Of a stretch of DNA of 64,000 bases, positions 2,140-60,090 are shown piece after piece (position 1 is the first letter of the stretch; each line of letters opens with the position of its first letter). Made by a program: the position numbers and the translations under genes. Origin of the DNA: Acetobacterium woodii (GTDB taxonomy: Bacteria > Bacillota > Clostridia > Eubacteriales > Eubacteriaceae); the NCBI GenBank assembly GCA_016213825.1, contig JACQZP010000021.1, positions 331,109 through 395,108 on the forward strand. The letters are read 5' to 3'. Below the pieces are notes generated by a model. The model made no database searches. It was not told the origin of the DNA and was given only the letters and a program-made list of their open reading frames with translations.

Positions 2140-4710
2140 ATGATCGTATATAAACAAAAAGATTTTTTAAACTATATGCCAGATGTTCAGGAATGCAATA
2201 AAAGTATTTCTGATCTCAATGACCAATGGGATAATATTAAACTGCTATCAGAAATTAATTGCCCGATTCAGTCAAAAAGTGTTCTGCCGAATATGACCAA
2301 AATTCAAAGTGGTTTTATTGACTTACAGGAAGAACTGATTGATACCCTTGTTTCAGAAAAATTAAAAAAAATGGAACAGAAAATCATCTCTAAAACCCAG
2401 GTTGCTATTGATATCCTGATCCGCAATCTTTTCGAAAGAACGGCCGATATCGGTTTTCTGGCAACCGATGATGATATCCGTCGATTTGTCGAAAATGAAG
2501 CGCGAACAGAAAGTGATCGCAACCAGATTTTAAGTCGCATGCGCGAATATGTAGCCAAATATTCGGTCTATGAAGATATTATTGTACTTGATAATAATTA
2601 TCGGGTTCTTGCCAATCTTGATGAAAAAAATGAAATTCTGGGCAAACAAATCAAAGGCCCTAATCTCATCAAAACCATGGAAGGTGAAGTTCCTTTTGTT
2701 GAGTATTTCAAAAATTCAAAATTGCAATATGGGGATAGCAACTCACATGTCTTTTCCAGCCGAATCTGTCGGGAAGGTACATCCCAGGCCATTGGTCTGA
2801 TCTGTTTGTGCTTCCGCTTCGAAAATGAAATGGCGCAGATTTTTGAAAAACTGACCAATGATTATGACGGATCTGTGATGACCATCATTGATGATACCAA
2901 TACGGTTATTGCCAGCAGTGATGAAAATCACGTCCCCACCGGTATCGTCATTGAGCCAGTGGAGTCTGGCGTAAATGGTGTGATTTATTATCGTGGTTCT
3001 GATTATATTTCAAAAACCATTGCCACCCAAGGTTACCAAAAGTACTTTGGACTGGGATGGAAAGGTCATGTCATGATTCCGCTTAGCCTTGCTTTTCGGG
3101 ATAACCGGAACCTCAAAAACATCGATTCCTCTGTTACCTCAGGGCTAATGCATCAGGCTGATTCTTTTTCCACCGAACTGAATGAGATTATCAACAAAAC
3201 GCAAACCATTAATGGATCCCTAAAACGGATTGTTTATAATGGACAAATCATTGCCCGTGACGATAGCATCGATGCTGAGTATTCTCGTTTAAAACCGATT
3301 TTAAGGGCCATCGGGCGCATCGGCACCAATACCAGCAGCCTTTTTCAAAGCTCTGTTTCTAATCTGTTTTCAACCGTCGTATCGACGAGCCTTGTGGACA
3401 CCAGTTTTTTAGCATCACTTTGTGTGGATATCATGGACAGAAACCTGTACGAACGAGCCAACGACTGTCGCTGGTGGGCATTAGATTCTACTTTTCGTCG
3501 AATTCTTGCCAAAGATAAAGTTAGTGACAATGATAAAAAACAATTGACCGACATCTTGACTTATATTAATGACCTTTATACGGTTTATAGCAACTTATTT
3601 ATTTTTGACAAAACCGGAACCATTATTGCAGTGGCTAATCCAAACCGTTCAGAGGATGTTGGCAGAACATTAACTTATCCATATATTGATGAAATATTAT
3701 CAAATGCTAATCCTGAAAAATACTTCGTTTCTCCATTTGAGAAGACCGATTTATACGATAACCGTCATACCTATATCTATGGCGCTTCCATTACTGACTT
3801 TGATAATCATAGTCGAACCGTTGGCGGTATTGGTATTGTTTTTGACAGTGAAGACCAATTTAAAACCATTCTTGAAGAATCACTTCATACTGGTAATGAT
3901 ACCTTTGCCGTGTTTGCAGACCGGAAGAAGAAAATCATCTCATCCACAAACGATGCTTATGAAATTGGCTCAGTCTTAAATCTCCCAGATGAGCTCTTTA
4001 CTGTAGCCAACGGAAATACCCGTTCGGAAATTCTGGTTTATGAAAATAGTTACTATTCGATTGGTTGTGCCTGCTCCTCCAGTTATCGCGAATATAAAAA
4101 TTCTGATGGATATCATAACGATGTGATCGCCTTTGTGTTTGAAAAGATGGCCGATTATGCTGAAATTACCTTAACGAAATCAGCCGAAAAAGAAATTGAA
4201 CAATCTGATTTTGCCTTCTCAATGACCAATGACCATAAGAAACTGGCAACCTTTGTCATCAACGGACAGGTATATGGTATGGAGCAATCTTATGTGATTG
4301 AAGCATTAGAAGCCAGCAAAACCATTTCGGTTCCCGGAACAAATGCGGTTATCCGTGGTGCGGTAGAATTTAATGATAACTATTATGCTGTCGTTGATGC
4401 GCTGGCCCTTTTTAATAAAAACGAACCCAGTCACGATGCCTTCCACTTACTGATGCTTCAGCTTTCTGATGACGAAATGATCGCTATTCAGGTCGAAAAA
4501 CTGGTGAGCGTTCTTGAAATCAATTTAAATGATATTCAACCGGTTGAAATTTCCTCGGCAATTACTGGCATTATCTGCCTGACTGATGGTTCTAACCGAA
4601 CAATTCTGGAAATGGATCCCCAAATTATTCTGGAAAAACTCGTTGAAAATCAAGTTGATGAAGACCTGGAAGCGGCCCTGCCAATGTTAGAAGCCATGGG
4701 AACTGTTTAG
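2140..4710 (+). CDS. Soluble double-Cache protein with C-terminal CheW domain
   Basis: An 856-aa protein with no signal peptide and no convincing membrane helix. Two similar sensory modules can be seen. The first spans roughly residues 85-330 and opens with RNLFERTADIGFLATDDDIRRF. The second spans roughly 427-660 and opens with RNLYERANDCRWWALDSTFRRI. Each continues with a Cache/PAS-like strand pattern (IIVLDNNYRVLANLD; LFIFDKTGTIIAVANP). Residues about 704-845 match CheW (ATFVINGQVYGMEQSYVIEAL, VRGAVEFNDNYYAVVDALALF), which couples chemoreceptors to CheA. There is no MCP signalling hairpin or kinase domain. The likely role is a cytoplasmic ligand-responsive adaptor in chemotaxis (inference). 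SD AGAGGAGAAA precedes the ATG. The next gene starts 8 bases after the stop, so the two may be co-transcribed. Confidence 0.8.
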   Translation: MIVYKQKDFLNYMPDVQECNKSISDLNDQWDNIKLLSEINCPIQSKSVLPNMTKIQSGFIDLQEELIDTLVSEKLKKMEQKIISKTQVAIDILIRNLFERTADIGFLATDDDIRRFVENEARTESDRNQILSRMREYVAKYSVYEDIIVLDNNYRVLANLDEKNEILGKQIKGPNLIKTMEGEVPFVEYFKNSKLQYGDSNSHVFSSRICREGTSQAIGLICLCFRFENEMAQIFEKLTNDYDGSVMTIIDDTNTVIASSDENHVPTGIVIEPVESGVNGVIYYRGSDYISKTIATQGYQKYFGLGWKGHVMIPLSLAFRDNRNLKNIDSSVTSGLMHQADSFSTELNEIINKTQTINGSLKRIVYNGQIIARDDSIDAEYSRLKPILRAIGRIGTNTSSLFQSSVSNLFSTVVSTSLVDTSFLASLCVDIMDRNLYERANDCRWWALDSTFRRILAKDKVSDNDKKQLTDILTYINDLYTVYSNLFIFDKTGTIIAVANPNRSEDVGRTLTYPYIDEILSNANPEKYFVSPFEKTDLYDNRHTYIYGASITDFDNHSRTVGGIGIVFDSEDQFKTILEESLHTGNDTFAVFADRKKKIISSTNDAYEIGSVLNLPDELFTVANGNTRSEILVYENSYYSIGCACSSSYREYKNSDGYHNDVIAFVFEKMADYAEITLTKSAEKEIEQSDFAFSMTNDHKKLATFVINGQVYGMEQSYVIEALEASKTISVPGTNAVIRGAVEFNDNYYAVVDALALFNKNEPSHDAFHLLMLQLSDDEMIAIQVEKLVSVLEINLNDIQPVEISSAITGIICLTDGSNRTILEMDPQIILEKLVENQVDEDLEAALPMLEAMGTV

Positions 4711-27550: not shown

Positions 27551-29590
27551 TTAATTAAATGAAACTTCCTCTATATCCAGATAAAATGATTTCAGCACTT
27601 CATTTCGAAATGTCATCATTTTTTCATCATTTGATGCAAACACAACTTCGGCGATTTTTTTGGTGCGACTGATTAACGCCAGTTCTTCCATCGGATTAAG
27701 TAACCCCAAGCGAGGTAACCCATGTTGCTTAAATCCGAAATAATCACCAGGTCCCCGGAGACGAAAATCTTCATCGGCAATTTTTCTGCCACTTGTATTG
27801 TTAACAATGACCTTCATCCGAGAGATGGTCTCCTCGCTTTTGGAATTGGTCACCAGAAAACAAAAGGATTGATGAATTCCCCGGCCGACTCGGCCCCGCA
27901 GTTGATGCAGTTGGGATAAACCAAACCGCTCAGCGCTGAGAATCACTATCGTACTGACGTTGGGTACATCAATACCAACTTCAATAATACTGGTCGCCAC
28001 CAGACAATGAATTTCGCCCTGATTGAAAGATTGGACAATCGCTTCCTTAGCTTCGTTTTTCAGCCGACCATGAAGACAAGCCACCTGATATCGGGCATCG
28101 ATTTTTTGAAGCAGTTCCAAATATACTGATTCCGTGTCACGAACCTCATCCAGTTCTTCGGATGCCTCAATGAAAGGACAGATGACAAAAGTCTGTCGGC
28201 CTTTATCCATCTCATCTTGCAAGAATTTCAAAATTTTATGAAATGAAGCTTCGTTATAACAATAGGTTTTTATCGGTTTGCGGCCTTTGGGCAGCTCATC
28301 GATATAAGAAACTGACAGATCTCCATATAGAATCAATGCCAGGGTTCGGGGAATCGGCGTGGCACTCATTACCATGTTATGAGGTTGATTCCCTTTTAGC
28401 GATAGCCGACTGCGTTGTTTGACTCCAAACCGATGCTGTTCATCGGTGATCACCAGTCCCAGATTGTAATAATCCACAGCGTCCTGAATCAGAGCATGGG
28501 TACCAATAATCACGGATACTTCGCCCTTGGAAACCCGCTCTAGAATTTCCCGCTTTTCTTTTACTTTTAAGCTTCCGGTAATCACTTCCGCGGAAATACC
28601 AGTGTGCTTTAACAGCTCTTTAAAACTGCGCCCATGCTGTTGCGCTAAAATCTCAGTGGGCGCCATATATGCGGTTTGATAGCCATTTTGAGCCATTAAA
28701 CAAGACGCTATGATGGCAATGACCGTTTTTCCTGAGCCCACATCTCCCTGTACCAGCCGATTCATTACCTGACCGCTTTTTAAATCTGCAATCATGTCAT
28801 TAATCACGGATCGCTGACTGGTTGTCAAATCATAGGGCAAACTGCTGATAAAGGGTTCTAAGCCCGAGAATAAATTAACTTCAATGTCCGAGTATCGTTT
28901 ATCCAAAGAATTGGACAAGATTCCCATGTTAATTTTCAGCGCCTCATTAAATTTAAGTCGCTCGATGCCCTGCAAGACATCTTCAGCTTTTTGCGGAAAA
29001 TGGATGACCTTTAATGCACTCTTTAAATCCAATAATCTTTCAGCTAATCTTATTTGCTCCGGCATCGGATCCGGTAGATCTAAATCGTCAGTGAATATTT
29101 GACTGAGCATTTTGGGCAAAACATTCTTGGGCAATCCCTGAATACTTTTATATAACGGTGTTAATTCGAAAAAATTACCGGGATTATTGGCACGAACAAA
29201 CTGCGGATTAGTAATTTTTGTCCCACCATAGGCCTTTTTTATCTTACCATAAAAATAATAATCCTCATTTTCGATAAAACTACTTTTCAAATAGGGCTGA
29301 TTAAAAAAAACGGCTGAAACCTTTTTTTCTTCCCAAAGCAGTGGCACAGTTAAAATAGAAAGATTACCGCGAATCCGTTGAACCCTCCCACTGTCTAAAA
29401 CAGTGGCTTTGATAGAGATTTCCTGATCTTCAGAAAATTCACCGGGTGTTCCCAGGACATTACGGTCAAGGTATTTTCTTGGGTAGCAAGACAAAAGATT
29501 TCCGATCGTTTTAATACCAGCGCTTTCCAAAATCTCTTTTCGCTTTGGCCCGACTCCTTTTATTTGTCCCAGTGAATCTTCCCATTTCAT
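27551..29590 (-). CDS. recG: ATP-dependent DNA helicase RecG
   Basis: A 679-aa superfamily 2 helicase that reverses stalled forks and migrates Holliday junctions. The N-terminal wedge region starts IKGVGPKRKEILESAGI. The helicase core has Walker A GDVGSGKTVIA, motif II TDEQHRFG, motif III MSATPIPRT and motif VI QLRGRVGRG. All are intact, in contrast to PriA at 41-43 kb. I chose ATG 29590, with GAGG 8 bases upstream; a TTG at 29617 would add nine residues. It follows the yloV/fakA gene as in Bacillus. Confidence 0.97.
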   Translation of the reverse strand: MKWEDSLGQIKGVGPKRKEILESAGIKTIGNLLSCYPRKYLDRNVLGTPGEFSEDQEISIKATVLDSGRVQRIRGNLSILTVPLLWEEKKVSAVFFNQPYLKSSFIENEDYYFYGKIKKAYGGTKITNPQFVRANNPGNFFELTPLYKSIQGLPKNVLPKMLSQIFTDDLDLPDPMPEQIRLAERLLDLKSALKVIHFPQKAEDVLQGIERLKFNEALKINMGILSNSLDKRYSDIEVNLFSGLEPFISSLPYDLTTSQRSVINDMIADLKSGQVMNRLVQGDVGSGKTVIAIIASCLMAQNGYQTAYMAPTEILAQQHGRSFKELLKHTGISAEVITGSLKVKEKREILERVSKGEVSVIIGTHALIQDAVDYYNLGLVITDEQHRFGVKQRSRLSLKGNQPHNMVMSATPIPRTLALILYGDLSVSYIDELPKGRKPIKTYCYNEASFHKILKFLQDEMDKGRQTFVICPFIEASEELDEVRDTESVYLELLQKIDARYQVACLHGRLKNEAKEAIVQSFNQGEIHCLVATSIIEVGIDVPNVSTIVILSAERFGLSQLHQLRGRVGRGIHQSFCFLVTNSKSEETISRMKVIVNNTSGRKIADEDFRLRGPGDYFGFKQHGLPRLGLLNPMEELALISRTKKIAEVVFASNDEKMMTFRNEVLKSFYLDIEEVSFN

Positions 29591-29626
29591 GGTTTTAGCC
29601 TCATGTTTCTTTTTCAATAAATCCTG

Positions 29627-39685: not shown

Positions 39686-40627
39686 CTAGTTTAAAATTGT
39701 TCCGATTTCCATTTTTTTACCGCGCAAAACAATGGTTGTTTTCATTCTTTTTTTTCCAGGAATTTGTACTTCCCCAATTTTAATTGCACTATCATTTGTT
39801 TTTACAATCAGTCCCTCCCGATCGCTGGCAACCAGCACCGTACCTGGCTCTTCATTACCTGTCCACAGAACAACCTCAGGTAAAAAACATTTAATTTTAT
39901 CTTCCTGATAGATCATATATGCTCCTGGCGTTGGATCCGTTCCATTCATGAGCGCTAATATTTCCCGACTGTTTTTTGTCCAATCAATGTGCCCAGTGTT
40001 CTTGAGTATTTTTTCTGCATAAGTCGCCAGAGCTTCATCTTGAATGACCGGTTTGATTTTATCATTTAATAAACCGCTCAATGTGGTGACTAATAAAGCT
40101 CCTCCCAGAACAGCTAATTCTTGATAGAGACTTGCAAACGTCGTTGTGTCAGTAATCGAACATTCTGCTTTAGCGAGCATCTCACCGGTATCCATCCCTT
40201 CGCTCATTTGCATAATCGTTATCCCGGTTTTAGTTTTACCATCAATGATCGCGCGTTGAATCGGTGCCGCGCCACGGTATTCCGGCAACAGCGAACCATG
40301 AATATTTAATGCACCATAGGTTGGCATCTCTAAAATTTCTTTTGATAGCATCTGTCCATAAGCAGCAACGATAAAAATATCTGCTTCATAACTTCTTAAT
40401 TGTTCCACAAATTCGGGATCTTTCACTTTTTCAGGTTGTAAAACAGCAATACCTAATGCTAACGCTTTCGCCTTTAAAGGCAGAATTTCAATCTTGTTAC
40501 CTCTTTTATTCGGCCGATCTGGCTGACAAACGACGGCGACAACCTGATAGTTTTCTGAAACCAGTTTTTCCAGCGCCGGAACCCCAAAGTCGGTGGTTCC
40601 CATGAAGATCACTTTCATTGTTTTCAT
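39686..40627 (-). CDS. fmt: Methionyl-tRNA formyltransferase
   Basis: A 313-aa enzyme that formylates initiator Met-tRNA using 10-formyl-tetrahydrofolate, a Wood-Ljungdahl pathway intermediate in acetogens. It has MGTTDFGVPALE, AAYGQMLSKEIL, the signature NIHGSLLPEYRGAAPIQRAII and TGITIMQMSEGMDTGEML. The ATG overlaps the def stop by 4 bases. A second ATG lies three codons in. Deformylation by Def, encoded just upstream, completes the cycle. Confidence 0.96.
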   Translation of the reverse strand: MKTMKVIFMGTTDFGVPALEKLVSENYQVVAVVCQPDRPNKRGNKIEILPLKAKALALGIAVLQPEKVKDPEFVEQLRSYEADIFIVAAYGQMLSKEILEMPTYGALNIHGSLLPEYRGAAPIQRAIIDGKTKTGITIMQMSEGMDTGEMLAKAECSITDTTTFASLYQELAVLGGALLVTTLSGLLNDKIKPVIQDEALATYAEKILKNTGHIDWTKNSREILALMNGTDPTPGAYMIYQEDKIKCFLPEVVLWTGNEEPGTVLVASDREGLIVKTNDSAIKIGEVQIPGKKRMKTTIVLRGKKMEIGTILN

Positions 40628-41064
40628 TTTTCAACGCGATCAATAAATAGAATTCCATCCAGGTGATCCAATTCATGACAAACCGCTCTGGCCAGCAAAT
40701 CTGAACAGAAAAGTTGAAAAAGCGTGCCATCCAGGTCAGTCGCTTCAACCACCAGTGATTCTGGTCGTTTAACCATTCCTGATTGTTCGGGAAGACTGAG
40801 ACAGGCTTCTTCATCAACTTCTTCGCCTTCGGTTGAAATAATCGTTGGATTGATAAAGGTCATCGGTCCATCACCCACATCAACAACAAACAACCGTTTT
40901 AAAATACCAACCTGGGGCGCAGCCAAACCAACTCCCTCTGCTTTTTTCATGGTTTCAACCATATCGTTATTTAATGTTACAATTTTTTCATCAATTTCTT
41001 CGATGTCCCGCGATTTCTTTCTAAGAATTGGGTCATCATCGATCCTTATTTGTCTGATTGCCAT
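40624..41064 (-). CDS. def: Peptide deformylase
   Basis: A 146-aa metalloenzyme that removes the formyl group from nascent proteins. The three motifs are GVGLAAPQVG, EACLSLP (the usual Gly before Cys is Ala here) and HELDHLDG, giving the Cys and two His metal ligands. I chose ATG 41064 with AGGAGGAG just upstream; the longer frame to 41169 only adds a non-conserved segment. It follows priA by 109 bases and overlaps fmt. Confidence 0.95.
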   Translation of the reverse strand: MAIRQIRIDDDPILRKKSRDIEEIDEKIVTLNNDMVETMKKAEGVGLAAPQVGILKRLFVVDVGDGPMTFINPTIISTEGEEVDEEACLSLPEQSGMVKRPESLVVEATDLDGTLFQLFCSDLLARAVCHELDHLDGILFIDRVEK

Positions 41065-41173
41065 CTGCTCCTCCTGTTTTGTTATTACTACCAAGCTAGT
41101 CACGCGAGTGCACCTGGTTTTATGTTCTGTTTCGTAATTACTACTATTATTAAAGCTGCGTTTGTACAAAATT

Positions 41174-43570
41174 TTATAAATTGATTTGTATGGATACTTT
41201 TGATTTCAACCCTTCAATAATACCAAGTTTGATTATCTTAGGCATTAGATTTTGAAATACATTGGGTTCTGAAAGTTTCAGCACGATTTGATAGGTAATA
41301 TTACCGCCTTTAACAACCCCGATTCGGACCGGTTTGTAAATTTCAAATGATTGGCCGATTTGTTTTAATTCACTTTTCAAAGCAACATAGAGTCGGAAAG
41401 CGTCATTTTCGGCATCCTTATCATGTGGCTGAAAAACACCAAAGCTGATCATGTTAACAACTGGCGGATATTTCATCAGCTCTCGATATCTTATTTCGCC
41501 ACGATAAAATTCCTGATAACTTTCATTTTTGATCGAATAAATTGTTTCATTATCTGGCTCGTGAGTCTGAATCAGTCCGATTGTTTGTGCGTCCATGGCC
41601 TTTTCAAAAAAAAGACGATAGGTCTGATAAACAATTTCAGCCGCCTGATAATTTCCCTGATTCAGATCTCGATCGATCAGAACTGCTGCCGCTACCCCGA
41701 CATTTACTAAATTAAAATGTTTAACAATAACCTGTGTTCCTATTAAAATATCAATCTCACCATGTGATAGTGCCTTATTTATTCTTTTTATCTCAGTTCG
41801 GTTCATATTTCCCTGGACGATTTCAACGCGTTTGCCTGGAAAAGCTTTTCTGATATATTCTTCCAACTGCTCAATGCCAAAACCCATATGTCTGATTTTA
41901 TCACTACCACAAGCCGAACATTGCCGCGGAACCGGTTTTTTATAACCACAATAATGGCAATGAAGTGCCTGATCATGATTAAAGTACTTTAAAGAAACAC
42001 CGCAGTTTGGGCATTTCTCAAGATGACCACAATTTCGGCAAAAAACACTGTTTGCATAACCTTTATTATTTATAAACAACACGTTGATCCGGTTATGATT
42101 TAACGAATCGCGCATTTGTTTAAGTAATTCACGACTCAAAATGCCCATATTGCCCTGATGCATTTCCTTTTGCATATCAACAATTTGAATTGTATTGCGC
42201 TGAATTTGAGGTTCCCCAATTTGGATGCTATCCATTTCTTTTTTTTGAATTTGATACCAGGTTGCAATCCTTGGTATTGTATCTGCCAAGATATAGGCTG
42301 CTCCCATAATCTCACTCGTCTTTTTTGCGATATCGGTAATGTGAAACTTTGGGGTTGAAATGGTTATATGTGATGCATCATGTTCATCATCAATAATAAT
42401 CAAACCAAGGTTTTTAAATGGTAAAAACAAAGCAGATCGCACGCCAATTACGACCTGAACCGCTCCGTCTTTTACCTTGCTATATAAATCAGCTCGTTGC
42501 TTTGGCGTTAAGCGGCCATGAAAAACACCAACCCGGTCACCAAAGTACTTATAAAACATTTCCATTCGCTGGAAGGTCATATTAACTTCTGGAAAAATAA
42601 TAACCGATGATTTACCCAATTTTAATTGATCTTCGATTGCTTTAAAAAACAGTCGATATTTGCTGGCTCCGTCAAAAACATGAAAAAATACACCGGTTCT
42701 TTTTCTGATTGATTTCAGACATTGTTTAAAATAAAACTGTTCCTTTTCTGTTAAAACGACTGTCTGCTCACTTTTTTGTATTACTGACAAATAATCAGCT
42801 GTCTGACTTGGTAATTTTGGTAGGTATTGACGCACATAGTTTTTCTTGATCAGTGGGTTTAGACTTTTTTCAAATTGGGTCGAGAGCATTTTCAGTTCCC
42901 CAGCCGACATATCCTTGAGTAATAAATAATCAAGTAGCATCCGCTGATTTTTTCCGATTTTTTTATCAAGAGTGATTGCTTCTCGCCCGATCTCTGTTAA
43001 CTGGTATAGTGTCGCCGCCGAATTATTGTCCTCACTGGACACAATTAAAGTTTTCCAGCTTTTCTCAGTATCGACGACTTTTTTTTCAATCAGACCATTT
43101 AAAGTGGCTCGATCTTCCAACTTGACTTTATTCAGTGTGAGCGCTACATTTTTTCCATTAAAATAATGTTCAATAAACCAGTGCTCCTTTAGATCGAGCT
43201 CAAGATTGTCTTTTCTAAAATAGTAATGAATTTCCTGACTGATTTTAACAGACATCGTAAAGTAAGAAAGGGCTTCATAAAATAAAGAACAATAGGAGGT
43301 CTTCATCCAAAGACACAATTCTATTTGTTCTTTATTTAAAACGGGCTGACTATCAATATTCTCAATAATTTCTTTAATTCTGCCTGAATAATCAGTTGCT
43401 TCCTTAATAAATACAACAAAACCTTCCACCCGCCGATTTCCGTTTCCAAATAAAACAACCACACGCATCCCAACTTTTAGAACCGATTCCAATTGTTGTG
43501 GAATGCGATAATCGTAAGCATGATCAATGCGCTTGTTCTTTTGGTTTAAAAAAACTTCGGCAATTTTCAC
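41174..43570 (-). CDS. priA: PriA-like primosomal protein N' with degenerate helicase motifs
   Basis: A 798-aa PriA homologue by position and architecture: the N-terminal DNA-binding domain (AEVFLNQKNKRIDHAYDYRIP), a helicase-like core, and the zinc-binding insert with all eight Cys (511, 514, 520, 523, 538, 541, 551, 554). Several ATPase motifs are altered. Walker A, normally GxTGSGKT, reads VFDGASKY at 298-305, keeping Lys304 only. Motif III SATP is replaced near 429-434 (ADTIPR). Motif VI AGRAGR is missing near 655-660 (FEKAMD). Motif II DDEH (394-397) and GTQ of motif V remain. The gene is intact at full length, so it may act as an ATP-independent restart or loading protein. Sits between rpoZ and def as in normal priA operons. 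Confidence 0.88.
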   Translation of the reverse strand: MKIAEVFLNQKNKRIDHAYDYRIPQQLESVLKVGMRVVVLFGNGNRRVEGFVVFIKEATDYSGRIKEIIENIDSQPVLNKEQIELCLWMKTSYCSLFYEALSYFTMSVKISQEIHYYFRKDNLELDLKEHWFIEHYFNGKNVALTLNKVKLEDRATLNGLIEKKVVDTEKSWKTLIVSSEDNNSAATLYQLTEIGREAITLDKKIGKNQRMLLDYLLLKDMSAGELKMLSTQFEKSLNPLIKKNYVRQYLPKLPSQTADYLSVIQKSEQTVVLTEKEQFYFKQCLKSIRKRTGVFFHVFDGASKYRLFFKAIEDQLKLGKSSVIIFPEVNMTFQRMEMFYKYFGDRVGVFHGRLTPKQRADLYSKVKDGAVQVVIGVRSALFLPFKNLGLIIIDDEHDASHITISTPKFHITDIAKKTSEIMGAAYILADTIPRIATWYQIQKKEMDSIQIGEPQIQRNTIQIVDMQKEMHQGNMGILSRELLKQMRDSLNHNRINVLFINNKGYANSVFCRNCGHLEKCPNCGVSLKYFNHDQALHCHYCGYKKPVPRQCSACGSDKIRHMGFGIEQLEEYIRKAFPGKRVEIVQGNMNRTEIKRINKALSHGEIDILIGTQVIVKHFNLVNVGVAAAVLIDRDLNQGNYQAAEIVYQTYRLFFEKAMDAQTIGLIQTHEPDNETIYSIKNESYQEFYRGEIRYRELMKYPPVVNMISFGVFQPHDKDAENDAFRLYVALKSELKQIGQSFEIYKPVRIGVVKGGNITYQIVLKLSEPNVFQNLMPKIIKLGIIEGLKSKVSIQINL

Positions 43571-43583
43571 AATCGTCTGGGTC

Positions 43584-43874
43584 CTATTCCATCACAATTG
43601 ACGCATCTTTATTTTCTTCGGCGTCAAAGAGCAGTACTTCCGTTTCATTAGTCTCTTCAAGTAATTCAGCTTCTGGGGTGTGAACTCGATGGACGCAATG
43701 AATCATTTCTTCAGAGATCTCATTGGTTGCGATGGTAACCGGGTTATCTATTTTTATTTTTACCAGCGGCTCGTCACCATCGACTATTTCTCTGGCTCGC
43801 TTTGCTGTTGCCAATACCAGTGAATATTTATTGTCCGCCAATTTAATTAAATCATTTAATGCAGGATATCGCAT
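43584..43874 (-). CDS. rpoZ: RNA polymerase omega subunit
   Basis: A 96-aa protein beginning MRYPALNDLIKLADNKYSLVLATAKRAREI, the omega signature. Omega stabilises the beta-prime subunit during RNA polymerase assembly. The C-terminal tail is acidic (EAELLEETNETEVLLFDAEE) and longer than the minimal form. It lies 3 bases after gmk and 13 before priA; coaBC, which usually follows rpoZ in Firmicutes, is absent here. Confidence 0.92.
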   Translation of the reverse strand: MRYPALNDLIKLADNKYSLVLATAKRAREIVDGDEPLVKIKIDNPVTIATNEISEEMIHCVHRVHTPEAELLEETNETEVLLFDAEENKDASIVME

Positions 43875-43877
43875 TCG

Positions 43878-44564
43878 TTACCTCCCAAGTATATCTTCAA
43901 TTTTATTTTTAAGTCGTTCCGTTCGGCATTTTTCTGCCGTTATAATACTCTGCACTCTTTGTGCGGCATCTTCAAGATCATCATTGATGACAATATAGCT
44001 GTAATCATCAGCATTTTTCATTTCTTCATAGGCGCAATTCAAGCGCATTTCCATTTGTTCTTTGCTCTCAGTTCCCCGTTCTTCGATCCGTCGTCGCAAT
44101 TCCTGCATTGATGGCGGAACAATAAAAATATAAATGCCTTCTTTATAGTTGACCCGAACCTTCGCTGCCCCTTGGATATCAATCTCTAAAATGACATCAA
44201 ATCCTGAATTTAATAAATTTTCCACATAATCTTTTGGTGTTCCATAATAGTTTTCATAGACTGTCGCATATTCCAGGTATTGTCCTTGTTTGATTCTTTC
44301 TTCAAAACTTTCCTTAGCAATATAAAAATATTCTCGACCATGTTTCTCATTGTTTCTTGGCTGACGTGTTGTTTCAGAAATTGACAGCCGCAGATCTGGG
44401 TTCTTTTGGCAGATAATCTTACAAACACTCCCTTTGCCGGCACAGGATGGTCCTGAAATGACAATGAGAATCCCTTTCTCTCTTTCGAAAAAAGATTCAG
44501 TTAATTGTTCTTCTTTTAATTCTTTAGTTACTACTGGACAATCACTCATAGACTTATTTAACAC
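43878..44564 (-). CDS. gmk: Guanylate kinase
   Basis: A roughly 223-228 aa enzyme that phosphorylates GMP to GDP. It has the P-loop ISGPSCAGKGSVCK, the GMP-binding TTRQPRNNEKHGREYFY and DVILEIDIQGAAKV. About 29 residues precede the usual start, a charged N-terminal extension. The start is uncertain: GTG 44564 abuts the yicC stop and lacks SD spacing, while ATG 44549 has its SD (GGGG) 14 bases away. rpoZ follows after 3 bases, the classic gmk-rpoZ pair. Confidence 0.95.
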   Translation of the reverse strand: MLNKSMSDCPVVTKELKEEQLTESFFEREKGILIVISGPSCAGKGSVCKIICQKNPDLRLSISETTRQPRNNEKHGREYFYIAKESFEERIKQGQYLEYATVYENYYGTPKDYVENLLNSGFDVILEIDIQGAAKVRVNYKEGIYIFIVPPSMQELRRRIEERGTESKEQMEMRLNCAYEEMKNADDYSYIVINDDLEDAAQRVQSIITAEKCRTERLKNKIEDILGR

Positions 44565-54438: not shown

Positions 54439-57400
54439 TTAACTTATTCTTTCTGGATCTTTATGATCATCTTCTGCGATCATTGTTCTTAATTCAAAAA
54501 TATGTTCCTGTCGCTTTTTCATGCTTCTTGTGTAAAGAATCAAGATTAATAAAGCGAGCAGTAGAATTAAGAAGTGAAGTATACAGCATTTGTGTTCATC
54601 CAGTTCAGTGCTTGCTAGTGGTGTTTTTTGATCTTCAATCGTTGTTGTATTTCCTGCTGCAAGTGGTGTTGCTGGATCAGCAATGGTTGTTAATCCAACT
54701 GCTGCTGGTACTAGTGCTGCAACCGGCGTCACTACAGCTGGTGTAACTGCTGCTGGGGTAACCGGCGTCGCTGGTGTTACTGGCACAACTGGAATTGCTG
54801 TCCAAGTAGCCGTGATGTTTACATCATTCGCTGGCATGTTGAATTTTCCATCAGTTGCAATAACTCCGCTAACTACCCATCCGTTAAAGGTATAACCGTT
54901 TCGGACAGGAATCTGTGTTGATACGATCTCTGGTGTTCCAACTAAAATACTAGTTTGATTGCCAGGCATATTGGTGACATTGTTAGCTCCAGGGATGTAG
55001 TTGATGTTATTCCATTGACCATCCGCTTTGCTGTAGATAACTATAGCACTGTAACCATTAACACCCATGGTGCCACTGACTACAATTGGATTGGCATTAT
55101 AGCCTGGAATAGACCCGCTGGTCTTACTAAAGTTTTCACCAAAGTTAAGTTTTTCATTAACTGTAGCTGGCAAGGCAGAAAGGTCGCCTTCCTGGCCAAC
55201 TGCGTATTGATAGATAATGGTCAAGTCGTATTGATTGACCTTCCATGTAGCTGTGATATTAACATCATTAGCTGGCATAGTAAATGCACCATCAACTGCA
55301 GTTGCGCCGCTTACTTCCCATCCTGTAAAGGTGTATCCGGTTCTAACCGGTACCTGAGTTGATACGGTTTGTTGAGTACCAGCAACAATATTGGTCTGAT
55401 TGGCAGGCATATTGGTAACACCTGTGGCTCCAGGTAAGTAGTTGATGTTACTTACCGTGATCGACATTGGTAAAATTGTGAATGTACCGTTCACTGTTTC
55501 AATATCATAGTTTCTGTAAATATCGCTTGGATAGCTGTATTCACCATCATAGAAACTGGACATTGCAGCCATATCAGAGTTGCTGAATTCTCGTAGATTC
55601 ACATAAATGTCATAAGTTCCAACATCTTCACCTGGTTCTCTAGTCAATGAGTAATCGACTGTATCGTCACCTAAGAGCCCTACAACTGTTGCAGTTAGCT
55701 TAGGATCTGTAGTACCAAGAGTTTTGGACTTATCATTTGCTGTGATTGTTACTTGTTTCTTTTGAATCGTCAGAGTTCCGTTAACTGTCGTGATACTGTA
55801 GTTTTCTGTGACTGGTTCTCCGTTGGCGTCAAAAATCTGGATGCCTTCATTGAAAGTCACAGGGTAATCTCCAACATCTGTTCCACTTCCTAATGCTGTA
55901 GCTTGAATACTATAACCTGTTGGCAACGGAATGCTTGTTGTAAATCCTGTCAAGGTTTGTTCTGAGCCGTTATAGGTAAATGTGTCACTGTTTGCGGTTA
56001 AGGTAATGTCCTGTGTCCATTGGGCAACATAGGTTTTGCTGCCGTCAACTGTTGTTTTTAACTCAGGACTCCAGCCGGTGAAGGTGTAGCCCGGGTTATG
56101 GTTATTGACTGCATCCGGTGCAGATGGGGTTTGACTGCCGTAATCCAGATTATTGGTGGTGCTGATTCCGAAGGTTCCCTGTGTCCCTGGTTCGTAGCTG
56201 ACACTGTATTGACCTTTGAAGTACACTTTTAATACGGTCGTTCCATCGCCTTGAATGGTTGCTTCAAAGACGTTCCCGGCACTGCTGTCTAATGCATATC
56301 CGCTTGGTGCAGTTTTATCCGCATCCGTCATACTGGCATTGATGCCGGTTTTTCCGGTGCGTTCCGTTTTACTGGTCGCTACACTTGGATAGGTTCCGTC
56401 TGTTCCCTGCTGGTAGGTTTCCACTGTATACTTGGTATCGGTGTTGGCCGTCCATTGGGCAACATAGGTTTTGCTGCCGTCAACTGTTGTTTTTAACTCA
56501 GGACTCCAGCCGGTGAAGGTGTAGCCTGCTTTTCCGGTAACAGTCGGTGCGGCCGGTGTGTCAGCGCCATAGACTAGGTTGCCCGTTGTCTGTTTGCTGA
56601 ATGTCCCCTGGGTTCCCGGATCATAGCTTACGCTGTATTTATCCTGGTTCCATTGGGCTGTATAGGTCACACTTCCGGTTACCTTATCTGTTTTCACAGG
56701 ACTCCAGCCAGTAAAGGTGTAGCCTGCCTGTCCGGTAACGGCCGGTGCGGCCGGTGTGTCAGCGCCATAGACTAGATTGCCCGTTGTCTGTTTGCTGAAT
56801 GTCCCCTGGGTTCCCGGATCATAGCTGACGCTATATTTACACTTTGAATAGTATAACCTCAGTGCAGTATTTCCATCTGCAGTAATAAATTCTTCTGTCT
56901 TACTATCCACAGCTCCTGCTGCATAAGCATATCCAGGATAATCTTTTATATTATCCTTATCATATACTTTTGCATTTGTCGTTCCTGTTTTGACTATTGT
57001 ATCCGTAGGAACTTTTGGATAAGTACTATCAGCATTTTGCAAATAGTGTTCTACTTTATATTGTGTTGCATCGCTTTCCGTCCACTGCGCGTATAAAGTA
57101 ACTGCACTATCCAGTTTTACACTGCTTCCTGCTGCATAATTAGTTCCTGATCCATTCATTGCTGCATTCCATCCATTAAAGACATAACCTGCTCTAGTTA
57201 ATGTGCCTTTACTAGCGACAGTCACATTTGTTCCAATTGGATATTGCACAGCACTCGGTACATCCCCAGTCCAATCGTTACAGTTTGGATTATAGGTTAA
57301 TGTTATTTTTTCTCGGTCTTGTACTACTCCATCAACATGCCAAGTTGATTCATGTTTGATTACATACCAAACAACATACTGAGTTGCTGGATTGTATGAT

Positions 57401-60090
57401 GGGAATACACTAATTATTTGGTCGTCTGATGGAATTGAATTTAAGTTTGCAAGTACAGCACCGTAATCATTATTTACATTTTTTTGTACTTTTAATGTTC
57501 CATCAATTCTTATTCCATCACTATACAATGACGAAGAATAACCACTTGGTTCATATGGGATTTTTCCGTCATAACGAACATAAAAATAAGCAGTTTCTGC
57601 TGTTTTACTTCCCCATATCGCATAGAGAGTTTCATTTTTTGTTACTTTGTAAAGATCACCTTCGTGGTAAATTAAACTCGTATATTGTGAATTACTGTTT
57701 GCATCAATATTTGTGCTCCATCCAATAAACTCACAATTTGATTTTTCACCAGGCGAACCAGGCATGGTTATTTCTGTACCATTTGTTTCAGTGATAGGTG
57801 ATGCAGAGATATTTCCACCGTTTGAATTAAAGGTGATGGTGCTACCTAGCACAGAAACATAAAACATTTCTTTTGCACTACCTGTTTTTGTTTGGTTCAT
57901 AGATGTGTAGGTGTATGTATATACATGGGAAATCACAACATCTCCGGGCTTTTTGCCATAAACAACAACTTGTTTTTTATCTGCTGACGGAGTAAAATCA
58001 ATGAATTCACTCCCACTGTCTACCTTCCAAGTATCTGAAGTTATGGTTTTTGTTGTTACTGTGTCAATATTATAAAGACTGGCTAATGTTATAGCATCTT
58101 TATAATTTATTTTATAAGTATTGGCTGAAGTTTGACCATTACCTGTTCCTCGATTGGTTCCTGCAACTACATAAATCGAAAAGTGATTCGTTTCAAAATC
58201 AACTGATGTTGATCCACCTGTTGCTAAAGGTTCCGCTGAAGTACAGTCATTAGTAACATGAAAAGCTTCCATTTGGTCGCCTTCTAAAGAAAGTGATGCA
58301 AACGTGATCCGAACGTTACCTGTTGGTTGAATGGCATTTCCATCTTTATCCAGAATAGTGATATCAAATGCTTTCAGGTCAGTGACTTCTTTATCATCAC
58401 TTACAGCATTTTCAATGGCACCTTCCACACTTGCGCTGTTGATAGCCACTGCATTAAGCTGTGAACCTTCAGGAAGTGTTCCTTCTGGTGCAAACAGAGT
58501 AATAAGTACGCCATTAACTGTGGTTTTAAATGATACTTCTGGTTTTGCTTCTTTGACTTCCACCGTTATGGTTTCAATGTAACTCACATTATTTCCAGAT
58601 TCGATTATATCGGTCTGGGTTGTATCGATCACATTGGTTGCTTCTGTCGTTGGATTGACGGTTGTACTATCACTTATTGGATTTTCAGGTGCTACAGTCG
58701 CTTTTGTTTCTGATTGATAGGTATGAGTTAAAGTGACTGTTCCTGTTTTTGTTCCAGTGATTTTAGCACTGTTGCCATCAGAGACCACTGTGATGTTATC
58801 ATTGTCAGCAATCCAGGCATGTTCTGTTCCGGTCTGACCGATAATCGTAATTGGATCCTCTCCAATCGCAATTTCGTAGCTGCCTCCGTTTACCACAACA
58901 GGTGCTACGGGGTTTATTACCGGTTTTTTATCTTCTGATGCTGCAACGATAACTGTTATACTACCTGTTACACCATTCTTGGTTGTAGCCGTGATTGTCG
59001 TGTTCCCTGGAGAAATCCCAGTGACCGTTCCATCAGCGGCTACCGTAGCCACACTTACATTGCTGGATGTCCAGACAACTGAATTATCCATTAGTTCTGA
59101 AGATAAAACCGTTGCCGTAACGCTGGTTGTACTTCCAGCTAAGATTGAATTAGCTCCAGCTACTACAGTAACACTGGTTGCCGGTACAACATCAATAGGC
59201 TCCTCTGCTGGTGTTGAAGGCAATTCTGGCTTCGTTGGTGAAGTACCAGGTTCCGGCTCAACAACTGGCAGTTCAATCTGAAATGGGGGTGGGGTTACTG
59301 GTGTAACTGTCCCTGTACCATTTCCTGAATCAACTGGATCAGCAGGTTTTATCACGCTGTCAACTGGGCTATTCAATTCTGGAATTTTGTCAAAAACAAT
59401 ATTGATTGTGGTTTCTTTAGCAATGTTATCAATTTGATAAGCATTTATTGCTGGTGATGCCACGTCAATTCCGTCCACTTTCACACTCGAAATTTTGTAT
59501 CCATCTTTTGGTGTAATACGAAAGGCAAAAGATTTACCTTCTTCAATCTCTTTTGTGAAGCTGTCTGGATTTACTGCTGCTAAATCAACGGCAATGGTTC
59601 CATTTTCTGACGATCCGACATTGAACCTTACATTGAATTTTTTGACTTCAGCTGCTTTTTCAGCTGCTGCTTTTTCAGCTGCTGCTTTCTCAGCTGCTGC
59701 CTGATCTGCTGCTGCTTTCTCAGCTGCTGCCTGATCTGCTGCCGCTTTCTCAGCTGCTGCCTGATCTGCTGCCGCTTTGTCCGCTGCTGCCTGATCAGCT
59801 GCCGCTTTGTCCGCTGCTGCTTTTTCAGCTGCAGGATCAGCTATTACTGGTGTTGCCACTGCTGGTGGTGTTTCCACTGCTGGTGGTGTTTCCACTGCTG
59901 GTGGTGTTTCCACTGCTGGTGGTGTTTCCACTGCTGGTGTTTCCACTGCTGGTGTTTCCACTGCTGGTGTTTCAGTCATTGCTTGATCCGGTTCCATTGC
60001 ATAAGCGACAATTGCATCTACTCCTGACATTTGAAACAACATCATAAAAGCCAAGAACATTGCCATTATCCGTCTAAACTTATTAAACAT
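54439..60090 (-). CDS. Giant repetitive surface protein (Ig-like, InlB B-repeat, MBG domains)
   Basis: An 1883-aa exported protein. The signal peptide (residues 1-31) starts with FNKFRRIMAMFLAFMMLFQM. A spacer of ETPAV/ETPPAV repeats (about 39-80) and an Ala-rich AAADQAAAEK segment (about 86-150) follow. Then come a beta domain, a bacterial Ig-like 2 domain near 305-385 (VWTSSNVSVATVAADGTVTG), Thr-rich domains, and several InlB B-type repeats with GYTFTGWSP from about 745 to 1300. An MBG-like part (TANSDTFTYNGSEQTLTGF, TANDKSKTLGT) and two NINYLPGA-type modules follow. The C-terminus has one membrane helix (CCILHFLILLLALLILIL) and a basic tail, with no LPXTG. It is probably an adhesin or biofilm protein. 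SD GGAAGGAGGT precedes the start. Confidence 0.85.
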   Translation of the reverse strand: MFNKFRRIMAMFLAFMMLFQMSGVDAIVAYAMEPDQAMTETPAVETPAVETPAVETPPAVETPPAVETPPAVETPPAVATPVIADPAAEKAAADKAAADQAAADKAAADQAAAEKAAADQAAAEKAAADQAAAEKAAAEKAAAEKAAEVKKFNVRFNVGSSENGTIAVDLAAVNPDSFTKEIEEGKSFAFRITPKDGYKISSVKVDGIDVASPAINAYQIDNIAKETTINIVFDKIPELNSPVDSVIKPADPVDSGNGTGTVTPVTPPPFQIELPVVEPEPGTSPTKPELPSTPAEEPIDVVPATSVTVVAGANSILAGSTTSVTATVLSSELMDNSVVWTSSNVSVATVAADGTVTGISPGNTTITATTKNGVTGSITVIVAASEDKKPVINPVAPVVVNGGSYEIAIGEDPITIIGQTGTEHAWIADNDNITVVSDGNSAKITGTKTGTVTLTHTYQSETKATVAPENPISDSTTVNPTTEATNVIDTTQTDIIESGNNVSYIETITVEVKEAKPEVSFKTTVNGVLITLFAPEGTLPEGSQLNAVAINSASVEGAIENAVSDDKEVTDLKAFDITILDKDGNAIQPTGNVRITFASLSLEGDQMEAFHVTNDCTSAEPLATGGSTSVDFETNHFSIYVVAGTNRGTGNGQTSANTYKINYKDAITLASLYNIDTVTTKTITSDTWKVDSGSEFIDFTPSADKKQVVVYGKKPGDVVISHVYTYTYTSMNQTKTGSAKEMFYVSVLGSTITFNSNGGNISASPITETNGTEITMPGSPGEKSNCEFIGWSTNIDANSNSQYTSLIYHEGDLYKVTKNETLYAIWGSKTAETAYFYVRYDGKIPYEPSGYSSSLYSDGIRIDGTLKVQKNVNNDYGAVLANLNSIPSDDQIISVFPSYNPATQYVVWYVIKHESTWHVDGVVQDREKITLTYNPNCNDWTGDVPSAVQYPIGTNVTVASKGTLTRAGYVFNGWNAAMNGSGTNYAAGSSVKLDSAVTLYAQWTESDATQYKVEHYLQNADSTYPKVPTDTIVKTGTTNAKVYDKDNIKDYPGYAYAAGAVDSKTEEFITADGNTALRLYYSKCKYSVSYDPGTQGTFSKQTTGNLVYGADTPAAPAVTGQAGYTFTGWSPVKTDKVTGSVTYTAQWNQDKYSVSYDPGTQGTFSKQTTGNLVYGADTPAAPTVTGKAGYTFTGWSPELKTTVDGSKTYVAQWTANTDTKYTVETYQQGTDGTYPSVATSKTERTGKTGINASMTDADKTAPSGYALDSSAGNVFEATIQGDGTTVLKVYFKGQYSVSYEPGTQGTFGISTTNNLDYGSQTPSAPDAVNNHNPGYTFTGWSPELKTTVDGSKTYVAQWTQDITLTANSDTFTYNGSEQTLTGFTTSIPLPTGYSIQATALGSGTDVGDYPVTFNEGIQIFDANGEPVTENYSITTVNGTLTIQKKQVTITANDKSKTLGTTDPKLTATVVGLLGDDTVDYSLTREPGEDVGTYDIYVNLREFSNSDMAAMSSFYDGEYSYPSDIYRNYDIETVNGTFTILPMSITVSNINYLPGATGVTNMPANQTNIVAGTQQTVSTQVPVRTGYTFTGWEVSGATAVDGAFTMPANDVNITATWKVNQYDLTIIYQYAVGQEGDLSALPATVNEKLNFGENFSKTSGSIPGYNANPIVVSGTMGVNGYSAIVIYSKADGQWNNINYIPGANNVTNMPGNQTSILVGTPEIVSTQIPVRNGYTFNGWVVSGVIATDGKFNMPANDVNITATWTAIPVVPVTPATPVTPAAVTPAVVTPVAALVPAAVGLTTIADPATPLAAGNTTTIEDQKTPLASTELDEHKCCILHFLILLLALLILILYTRSMKKRQEHIFELRTMIAEDDHKDPERIS
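56015..56091. repeat. 77-bp exact repeat, copy 1
   Basis: Bases 56015-56091 recur exactly at 56450-56526, 435 bases away. They encode part of adjacent B-type repeat modules of the surface protein. Exact identity implies recent duplication or gene conversion. Confidence 0.9.
56450..56526. repeat. 77-bp exact repeat, copy 2
   Basis: Second copy of the 77-bp repeat at 56015-56091. It leads straight into the next repeat family at 56545. Confidence 0.9.
56545..56628. repeat. 84-bp near-exact repeat, copy 1
   Basis: Bases 56545-56628 recur at 56743-56826 with one mismatch, at a 198-base (66-codon) spacing, the length of one B-type repeat module. This shows tandem module duplication. Confidence 0.88.
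56743..56826. repeat. 84-bp near-exact repeat, copy 2
   Basis: Second copy of the repeat at 56545-56628, one module upstream in the protein. Confidence 0.88.
59648..59833. repeat. Ala-rich 15/30-bp tandem repeat
   Basis: About six units of 30 bases built on a 15-base core, coding AAADQAAAEK-type sequence near the N-terminus of the surface protein. Copy-number change in steps of 15 would keep the frame. Confidence 0.85.
59856..59973. repeat. ETPPAV/ETPAV 18- and 15-bp tandem repeats
   Basis: About four 18-base units coding ETPPAV followed by about three 15-base units coding ETPAV. They form a Pro-rich spacer after the signal peptide. Both unit lengths preserve the reading frame. Confidence 0.88.

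Follow-up and report, generated by a model that had tools for sequence, protein, structure and literature searches.

The PriA proteins of Actinobacteria are probably helicase-inactive. In one account, the actinobacterial protein is described as a putative orthologue, smaller and very divergent (PMC1193525). As a kind, the PriA pseudohelicase is known since 2015, when the protein of Deinococcus radiodurans, with poor matches to motifs I and II and Arg in place of the Walker A Lys, was reported to have no measurable ATPase and negligible unwinding, and to bind single-stranded DNA, forks and DnaB (PMC4504706, Lopper et al. 2015). Among engineered variants of Escherichia coli PriA, K230R reportedly lacks ATPase as well as helicase activity (PMC4504706), and the ATPase-dead K230A has been used in DnaB-loading assays (PMC10175261). 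The PriA-PriB pathway is said to operate in vivo without need of the ATPase and helicase activities (PMC10175261), and the PriA-PriC pathway is described as one that requires the PriA helicase (PMC13220808). Bacillus subtilis PriA recruits DnaD, DnaB and DnaI; whether it needs its motor is described as unclear, and RadA/Sms has been proposed to expose the lagging strand in that species (PMC10804225).

Here, we describe a PriA homologue from a 64,000-nucleotide stretch of DNA (hereafter the window), which belongs to a family that is probably Eubacteriaceae, with the window near Acetobacterium; a fragment from an Acetobacterium metagenome-assembled genome is 97% identical to the window PriA over 144 residues and stops before Walker A. 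Like E. coli and B. subtilis PriA, the protein has the domain order 3' DNA-binding domain (3'BD), WH, two lobes with a zinc insert, and C-terminal domain (CTD), and shares their predicted fold and eight zinc Cys; unlike them, it has no Walker A, SATP or GRxGR, and its lobes lack their usual strong conservation. The D. radiodurans protein has likewise lost its ATPase motifs, and its inactivity was demonstrated biochemically. In contrast to the changes described for that protein, none of motifs I, III and VI survives here and the Lys column is variable; the window PriA also comes from another phylum and is accompanied by a DnaD-type loader. Given the different phyla, the two losses are presumed to have separate origins. 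The E. coli K230A and K230R proteins differ in a single engineered residue, whereas here the erasure is natural and family-wide.

Among the open-licence titles listed, none reported loss of PriA motifs in Eubacteriaceae or other Bacillota, though such a report may exist elsewhere; reports of PriA pseudohelicases among the open-licence matches listed concerned Deinococcus only, and no open-licence paper joining PriA, Acetobacterium and helicase was found. Judged by the open-licence papers listed, it is new that a whole family shares the loss, that it recurs in the phylum and that it reaches motifs I, III and VI, and so is the map of the released constraint.

The priA locus and its motor motifs

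The features of the locus and the former motor motifs, the latter placed by alignment, are as follows.

41174..43570, minus strand: priA, 798 aa, GTG start, motor motifs lost
43256..43570, minus strand: priA 3' DNA-binding domain, spanning residues 1-105, with its Pfam PF17764 match at 6-102
41909..42040, minus strand: priA zinc region, Cys 511 through Cys 554, with its eight Cys intact
41180..41560, minus strand: priA C-terminal domain, residues 671-797, retained
42656..42679, minus strand: former Walker A, VFDGASKY, residues 298-305, aligned to GVTGSGKT
42380..42391, minus strand: former motif II DEEH, now DDEH, residues 394-397
42272..42283, minus strand: former motif III SATP, now DTIP, residues 430-433
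41591..41614, minus strand: former motif VI QVAGRAGR, now LFFEKAMD, residues 653-660
43584..43874, minus strand: rpoZ (omega), neighbour upstream of priA
40624..41169, minus strand: def (peptide deformylase), neighbour downstream of priA
39686..40627, minus strand: fmt (methionyl-tRNA formyltransferase), neighbour downstream of priA

The window protein is PriA by descent, on the combined evidence of profile, architecture, eight-Cys zinc region and predicted fold. It scored 379.5 bits against TIGR00595 (cut-off 230.35), its match to NF004066 spanned residues 3-797 at a score below that profile's own cut-off of 813, Pfam recognized the 3'BD and the PriA zinc ribbon, and the best matches in a PDB sequence search were PriA chains. 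All eight zinc Cys are present (511, 514, 520, 523, 538, 541, 551 and 554). The gene is flanked by gmk and rpoZ upstream and by def and fmt downstream, and priA adjoining def and rpoZ is presumably also the arrangement in B. subtilis. Elsewhere in the window, a 1883-aa frame (54439-60090, minus strand) carries Listeria-Bacteroides repeats with Big_2 and MBG domains and likely encodes a cell-surface protein.

None of the motifs of an active helicase (Walker A GxTGSGKT, motif II DEEH, motif VI QxxGRxGR) is found in the window PriA. Aligned with the E. coli protein, GVTGSGKTE is replaced by VFDGASKYR, which retains a Lys (K304) at the position of the Walker A lysine; IDEEHD has become IDDEHD, leaving motif II half kept; LGSATP reads LADTIP, within a motif III stretch LADTIPR; and TQVAGRAG corresponds to RLFFEKAM, within a motif VI region YRLFFEKAMD. 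The preliminary description of this DNA had reported a full-length priA beside rpoZ and def with an intact eight-Cys site, a Walker A reading VFDGASKY, a motif III reading ADTIPR and a motif VI without AGRAGR, and each of these readings was reproduced. Its remark that the nearby RecG keeps all its motifs was likewise borne out, as the window RecG (27551-29617, minus strand) reads GDVGSGKT, DEQH, SATP and QLRGRVGR. This RecG, motifs intact, scored 652 bits, just below the curated recG cut-off of 659.4.

The possibility that the true motifs lie elsewhere in the protein or in another frame was rejected by pattern searches. The patterns G-x4-GK, G-x-TG-x-GK, SATP, DExH and GRxGR do not occur anywhere in the window PriA, and neither Walker A nor GRxGR occurs in the six frames of window positions 40901-43900; since no substitute was found in the protein or in the six frames, the real motifs are not located elsewhere. 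An intact second priA was also rejected, both in the window's own genome, where the remaining matches were frames of 691 and 1156 aa recognized by the RecG and Mfd profiles, and in the family, where none of the 40 genomes held a second match of PriA strength (TIGR00595; next separate matches at E 1e-15 or weaker, among the matches listed by E-value).

From an alignment of the window PriA with 54 PriA proteins of named loci, AlphaFold2 produced a model with pLDDT 83.3 and pTM 0.78. The nine best PDB matches to this model in Foldseek were PriA chains, headed by fork-bound E. coli PriA (8fak_H) with a TM score of 0.85 by target and 0.69 by query length, at an rmsd of 8.7 over the whole chain. In the secondary structure of the model, which contains no ligand, a strand at 293-298 leads into a helix from 301, and since this predicted helix begins before K304, the phosphate-binding loop looks closed in the model.

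Loss in one family and the release of constraint

PriA was taken from each of the family's 40 genomes (9 genera) and, among the 27 remaining genomes in the order, from 23, the four left out (G047, G053, G054 and G062) being drafts of 79-93% completeness with no PriA match or a fragment. Two family rows (L024 and L025) are cut and lack their N-terminal part, leaving 38 that cover Walker A. In none of these is the Walker A Thr present, and the lysine column holds Lys in 19, Arg in 11 and other residues in 8. SATP and GRxGR are absent from all 40 family rows, the SATP Ser column reading Asp in 37 and Glu in 3, and in motif VI the second Arg column is never Arg and the first is Arg in 9. Motif II is variable (Asp in 31/40, His in 17/40), and the Pro-Glu of motif Ia is mostly kept. 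Some old active-site columns have been newly fixed, with Asp or Glu at the SATP Ser in 40/40 and two motif VI columns occupied by Phe in 36/40 and 37/40. Each of the eight zinc Cys is present in every family row, and the PriA match in one draft (G038) is split into two pieces of one frame. In the sister families, by comparison, GxTGSGKT, motif II Asp-Glu and His, and GRxGR are all present in 23/23 rows, and motif III reads SATP in 22 and TATP in one. These family and sister counts mark the loss as a trait of one family inside the order, present in exactly one of the five families sampled, and the alternatives of a loss confined to the genus or spread over the order were rejected. In PriA loci from a contig scan, Walker A was fully covered in 78 of at least 80 and read GxTxxGKT in all 78; because these loci were found with patterns that include the motif II stretch, they are a biased sample from other groups, and their alignment served for folding only.

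Trees of PriA and RecG from 12 family and 15 sister genomes, built without an outgroup, both separate the family from the sisters by a branch with 100/100 support, and midpoint rooting of the RecG tree places it amid sister families whose PriA is intact. Given this position, and as PriA is generally intact across the class (391-genome scan), one loss on the family stem would be the simplest account, a placement that depends on trees lacking an outgroup and on PriA being intact in other groups.

Relative to the RecG tree, the PriA tree had a length of 2.82 in the family and of 0.84 in the sisters, a 3.35-fold difference. Among 15 sequences of the genus (105 pairs, mostly saturated), median dN/dS was 0.136 for whole PriA and 0.126 for lobe 1 over the 13 of 105 pairs with pS of 0.02-0.6, and mean pN/pS was 0.31 over all 105 mostly saturated pairs. 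Judged by these ratios, the priA gene is maintained under purifying selection and is not in decay. The window PriA thus has the hallmark of a pseudohelicase, catalytic residues lost in a gene that is retained and selected.

Where constraint was released can be read from a map of mean pairwise identity divided by the RecG identity of the same pairs, in which a stop shortens the RecG row of one genome (G029) to a 616-aa frame. From sisters to family, this ratio changed from 0.86 to 0.90 in the 3'BD, from 0.68 to 0.48 in the linker/WH, from 1.32 to 0.53 in lobe 1, from 1.34 to 0.69 in lobe 2a, from 1.49 to 0.81 in the zinc region, from 1.51 to 0.69 in lobe 2b and from 0.85 to 0.55 in the CTD. By this measure, the lobes and the zinc region have passed from most conserved to ordinary, the linker and the CTD are also looser, and the 3'BD is unchanged. 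The pattern was the same among pairs matched for a RecG identity of 0.45-0.60 (51 from the family, 12 from the sisters), with lobe 1 at 0.27 in the family against 0.62 in the sisters and the 3'BD at 0.46 against 0.48. The zinc region and the CTD of E. coli PriA carry partner surfaces, and because both have lost conservation in the family, its partner contacts may have changed.

Within the 3'BD, D20 of the window PriA aligns with E. coli Asp17, which a review describes as crucial for recognition of the 3' base (PMC4129139), and Asp stands at this column in 33/40 family and 13/23 sister rows. Ten columns of the domain (Q10, N12, K13, R14, D73, L85, C86, F97, Y98 and F104) are at 87% or more in the 38 family rows and below 60% for the commonest residue in sisters, frequencies (residues 10-14 and 73-104) that come from unevenly sampled family rows.

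Recurrence in the class and phylum

A scan of 391 genomes of the class, 8 of them from the motor-dead family, revealed no further motor-dead PriA by score. Eleven low scorers were re-examined and most were cut by contig ends or broken frames; in the two whose motifs were read (L069 and L076), Walker A is intact. One of these (L076, G306:C9:58160-59428, from another family of the class) is a 612-aa PriA frame with GVTGSGKTE, DEEH, SATP and GRAGR that is without the zinc-ribbon stretch, a mirror image of the window PriA. Fifteen class genomes, mostly incomplete drafts, gave only matches to PriA of RecG/Mfd level; the one among them that was re-examined (G133, rated 100% complete) had no PriA match above that level.

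In the phylum, 219 genomes of at least 95% completeness were scanned and 6 of 7 low scorers were re-examined, G633 being left out. Two of them (G494 and G606) were cut by contig ends and keep Walker A. Besides the window's own genome, four phylum genomes encode a PriA of 668-746 aa without Walker A, SATP or GRxGR, namely, L214 (G507), L217 (G622), L218 (G628) and L215 (G647). They fall into three further families, G507 and G622 sharing one. All four keep the eight zinc Cys, and no second match of PriA strength was found in these four genomes in the phylum scan. Outliers were picked by a drop in profile score, and since such a search misses losses of the Lys-to-Arg type that change a single residue, the number of losses is a lower bound.

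An Mfd tree of 7 motor-dead genomes (3 of the window's family) and 23 intact ones requires three or more changes, and still does so when the count is limited to starred branches. Two rows, G446 with an odd long frame and G471 with a 727-aa frame, were in this first tree and were dropped from the rerun and the AU test. Constraining the seven motor-dead genomes, a group defined by its trait of motor loss, to a common origin cost 328.5 log units in a quick tree of 28 rows (p-AU 2.3e-7), and a common origin was rejected. On the Mfd tree, the four motor-dead genomes outside the window's family would represent two losses. The preliminary description had suggested parallel loss, and the backing for it is now stronger than was claimed, with at least three losses inside the phylum on this tree.

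A probable fork landmark without a motor, and rival readings

In its own genome, the window PriA is accompanied by a protein with two DnaB_2 domains (DnaD-type), whose gene immediately precedes that of an AAA+ protein of the DnaC/DnaI/IstB type reading GPPGVGKT. A DnaB_2 protein was found in 64 of the 67 genomes of the order, including 48/48 of the better ones. Among the motor-dead genomes elsewhere in the phylum, matches were clear in G647 and weak in G507 and G622. The profile search found none in the motor-dead G628 and none in the intact G504, so different lineages may rely on different loader partners.

We consider it likely that the window PriA is a pseudohelicase with a dead ATPase and that it continues to mark abandoned forks for a DnaD-type helicase loader. 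Fork binding, loader recruitment and the lack of ATPase are inferred for this protein, fork recognition and recruitment of the DnaD-type loader on the strength of what is described for D. radiodurans, E. coli and B. subtilis PriA. The protein would bind an abandoned fork or D-loop via the leading-strand 3' end and the fork junction and would leave the lagging strand un-unwound, serving as a passive landmark at which the DnaD-like protein and the AAA+ loader could place the replicative helicase. Recruitment would occur on forks with an open lagging strand, and forks with a duplex lagging strand would depend on a different enzyme for their opening or be handled by other pathways. The preliminary description had likewise proposed a lost motor with retained fork-recognition parts, a view that the family alignment, the selection and rate analyses and the predicted fold uphold.

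How forks with a duplex lagging strand are handled admits a variant of this main reading, compatible with it, in which the motor is outsourced and another helicase opens the lagging strand, instead of restart being limited to open forks. We regard this variant as possible but doubtful. RecG is present and intact in the window's own genome, and other 3'-5' helicases such as PcrA or RecQ would be expected there. The RadA/Sms proposal for B. subtilis (PMC10804225) offers a precedent. A further departure would be that PriA still binds nucleotide, perhaps with slow hydrolysis at a rebuilt site, and that ATP acts as a conformational switch without a motor. Since the Walker A Lys is kept in 19/38 rows, the motif II Asp in 31/40 and the His in 17/40, the PriA of the family may still bind nucleotide weakly, and the mostly kept motif Ia Pro-Glu would suit a switch; but with the Walker A Thr lost in 38/38 and the second motif VI Arg in 40/40, Arg or other residues in 19 of 38 rows at the lysine column, and a phosphate loop that looks closed in the model, we judge such a switch improbable.

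Still less likely is that PriA has left replication restart for a new role, such as a regulator that blocks polymerase at forks. The novel residues fixed at the SATP Ser and in motif VI could be taken as signs of such a role, whereas the 3'-end-binding domain, the eight Cys, the predicted fold and the DnaD-type loader have all been kept. The roughly 3.4-fold greater relative length of the PriA tree in the family might suggest a decaying gene, but the same loss in 40/40 genomes, with PriA frames free of stops in the match, all zinc ligands kept and a dN/dS of about 0.14, leaves hardly any room for decay or sequence error; a pseudogene was rejected on these grounds, and the preliminary description was right to discount sequence error.

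The motor-dead PriA as a marker of forks for the loader suggests that restart can run without a PriA motor. We tentatively propose that, with the motor lost repeatedly in the phylum, the indispensable core of PriA may be a 3'-end fork sensor and loader platform to which the helicase is an add-on, and that in the family the dead ATP site was perhaps rebuilt as a fixed interface, with Asp/Glu at the SATP Ser and Phe-Phe in motif VI, that keeps PriA in one fork-bound state or touches the loader. A family with a motor-dead PriA only and a DnaD-type loader is a natural experiment, for which the intact sister families are controls. The constraint map, with the 3'-end domain kept and the lobes released, points to the indispensable part of the protein and bears on PriA as a drug target, and the present data add at least three lineages of motor-dead PriA. 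On the contig with the loader pair (L167:723-2703, contig C21), the DnaD-type and AAA+ frames overlap by 14 bases in an operon-like arrangement, and the frame beyond them (2937-4253) resembles murA by eye.
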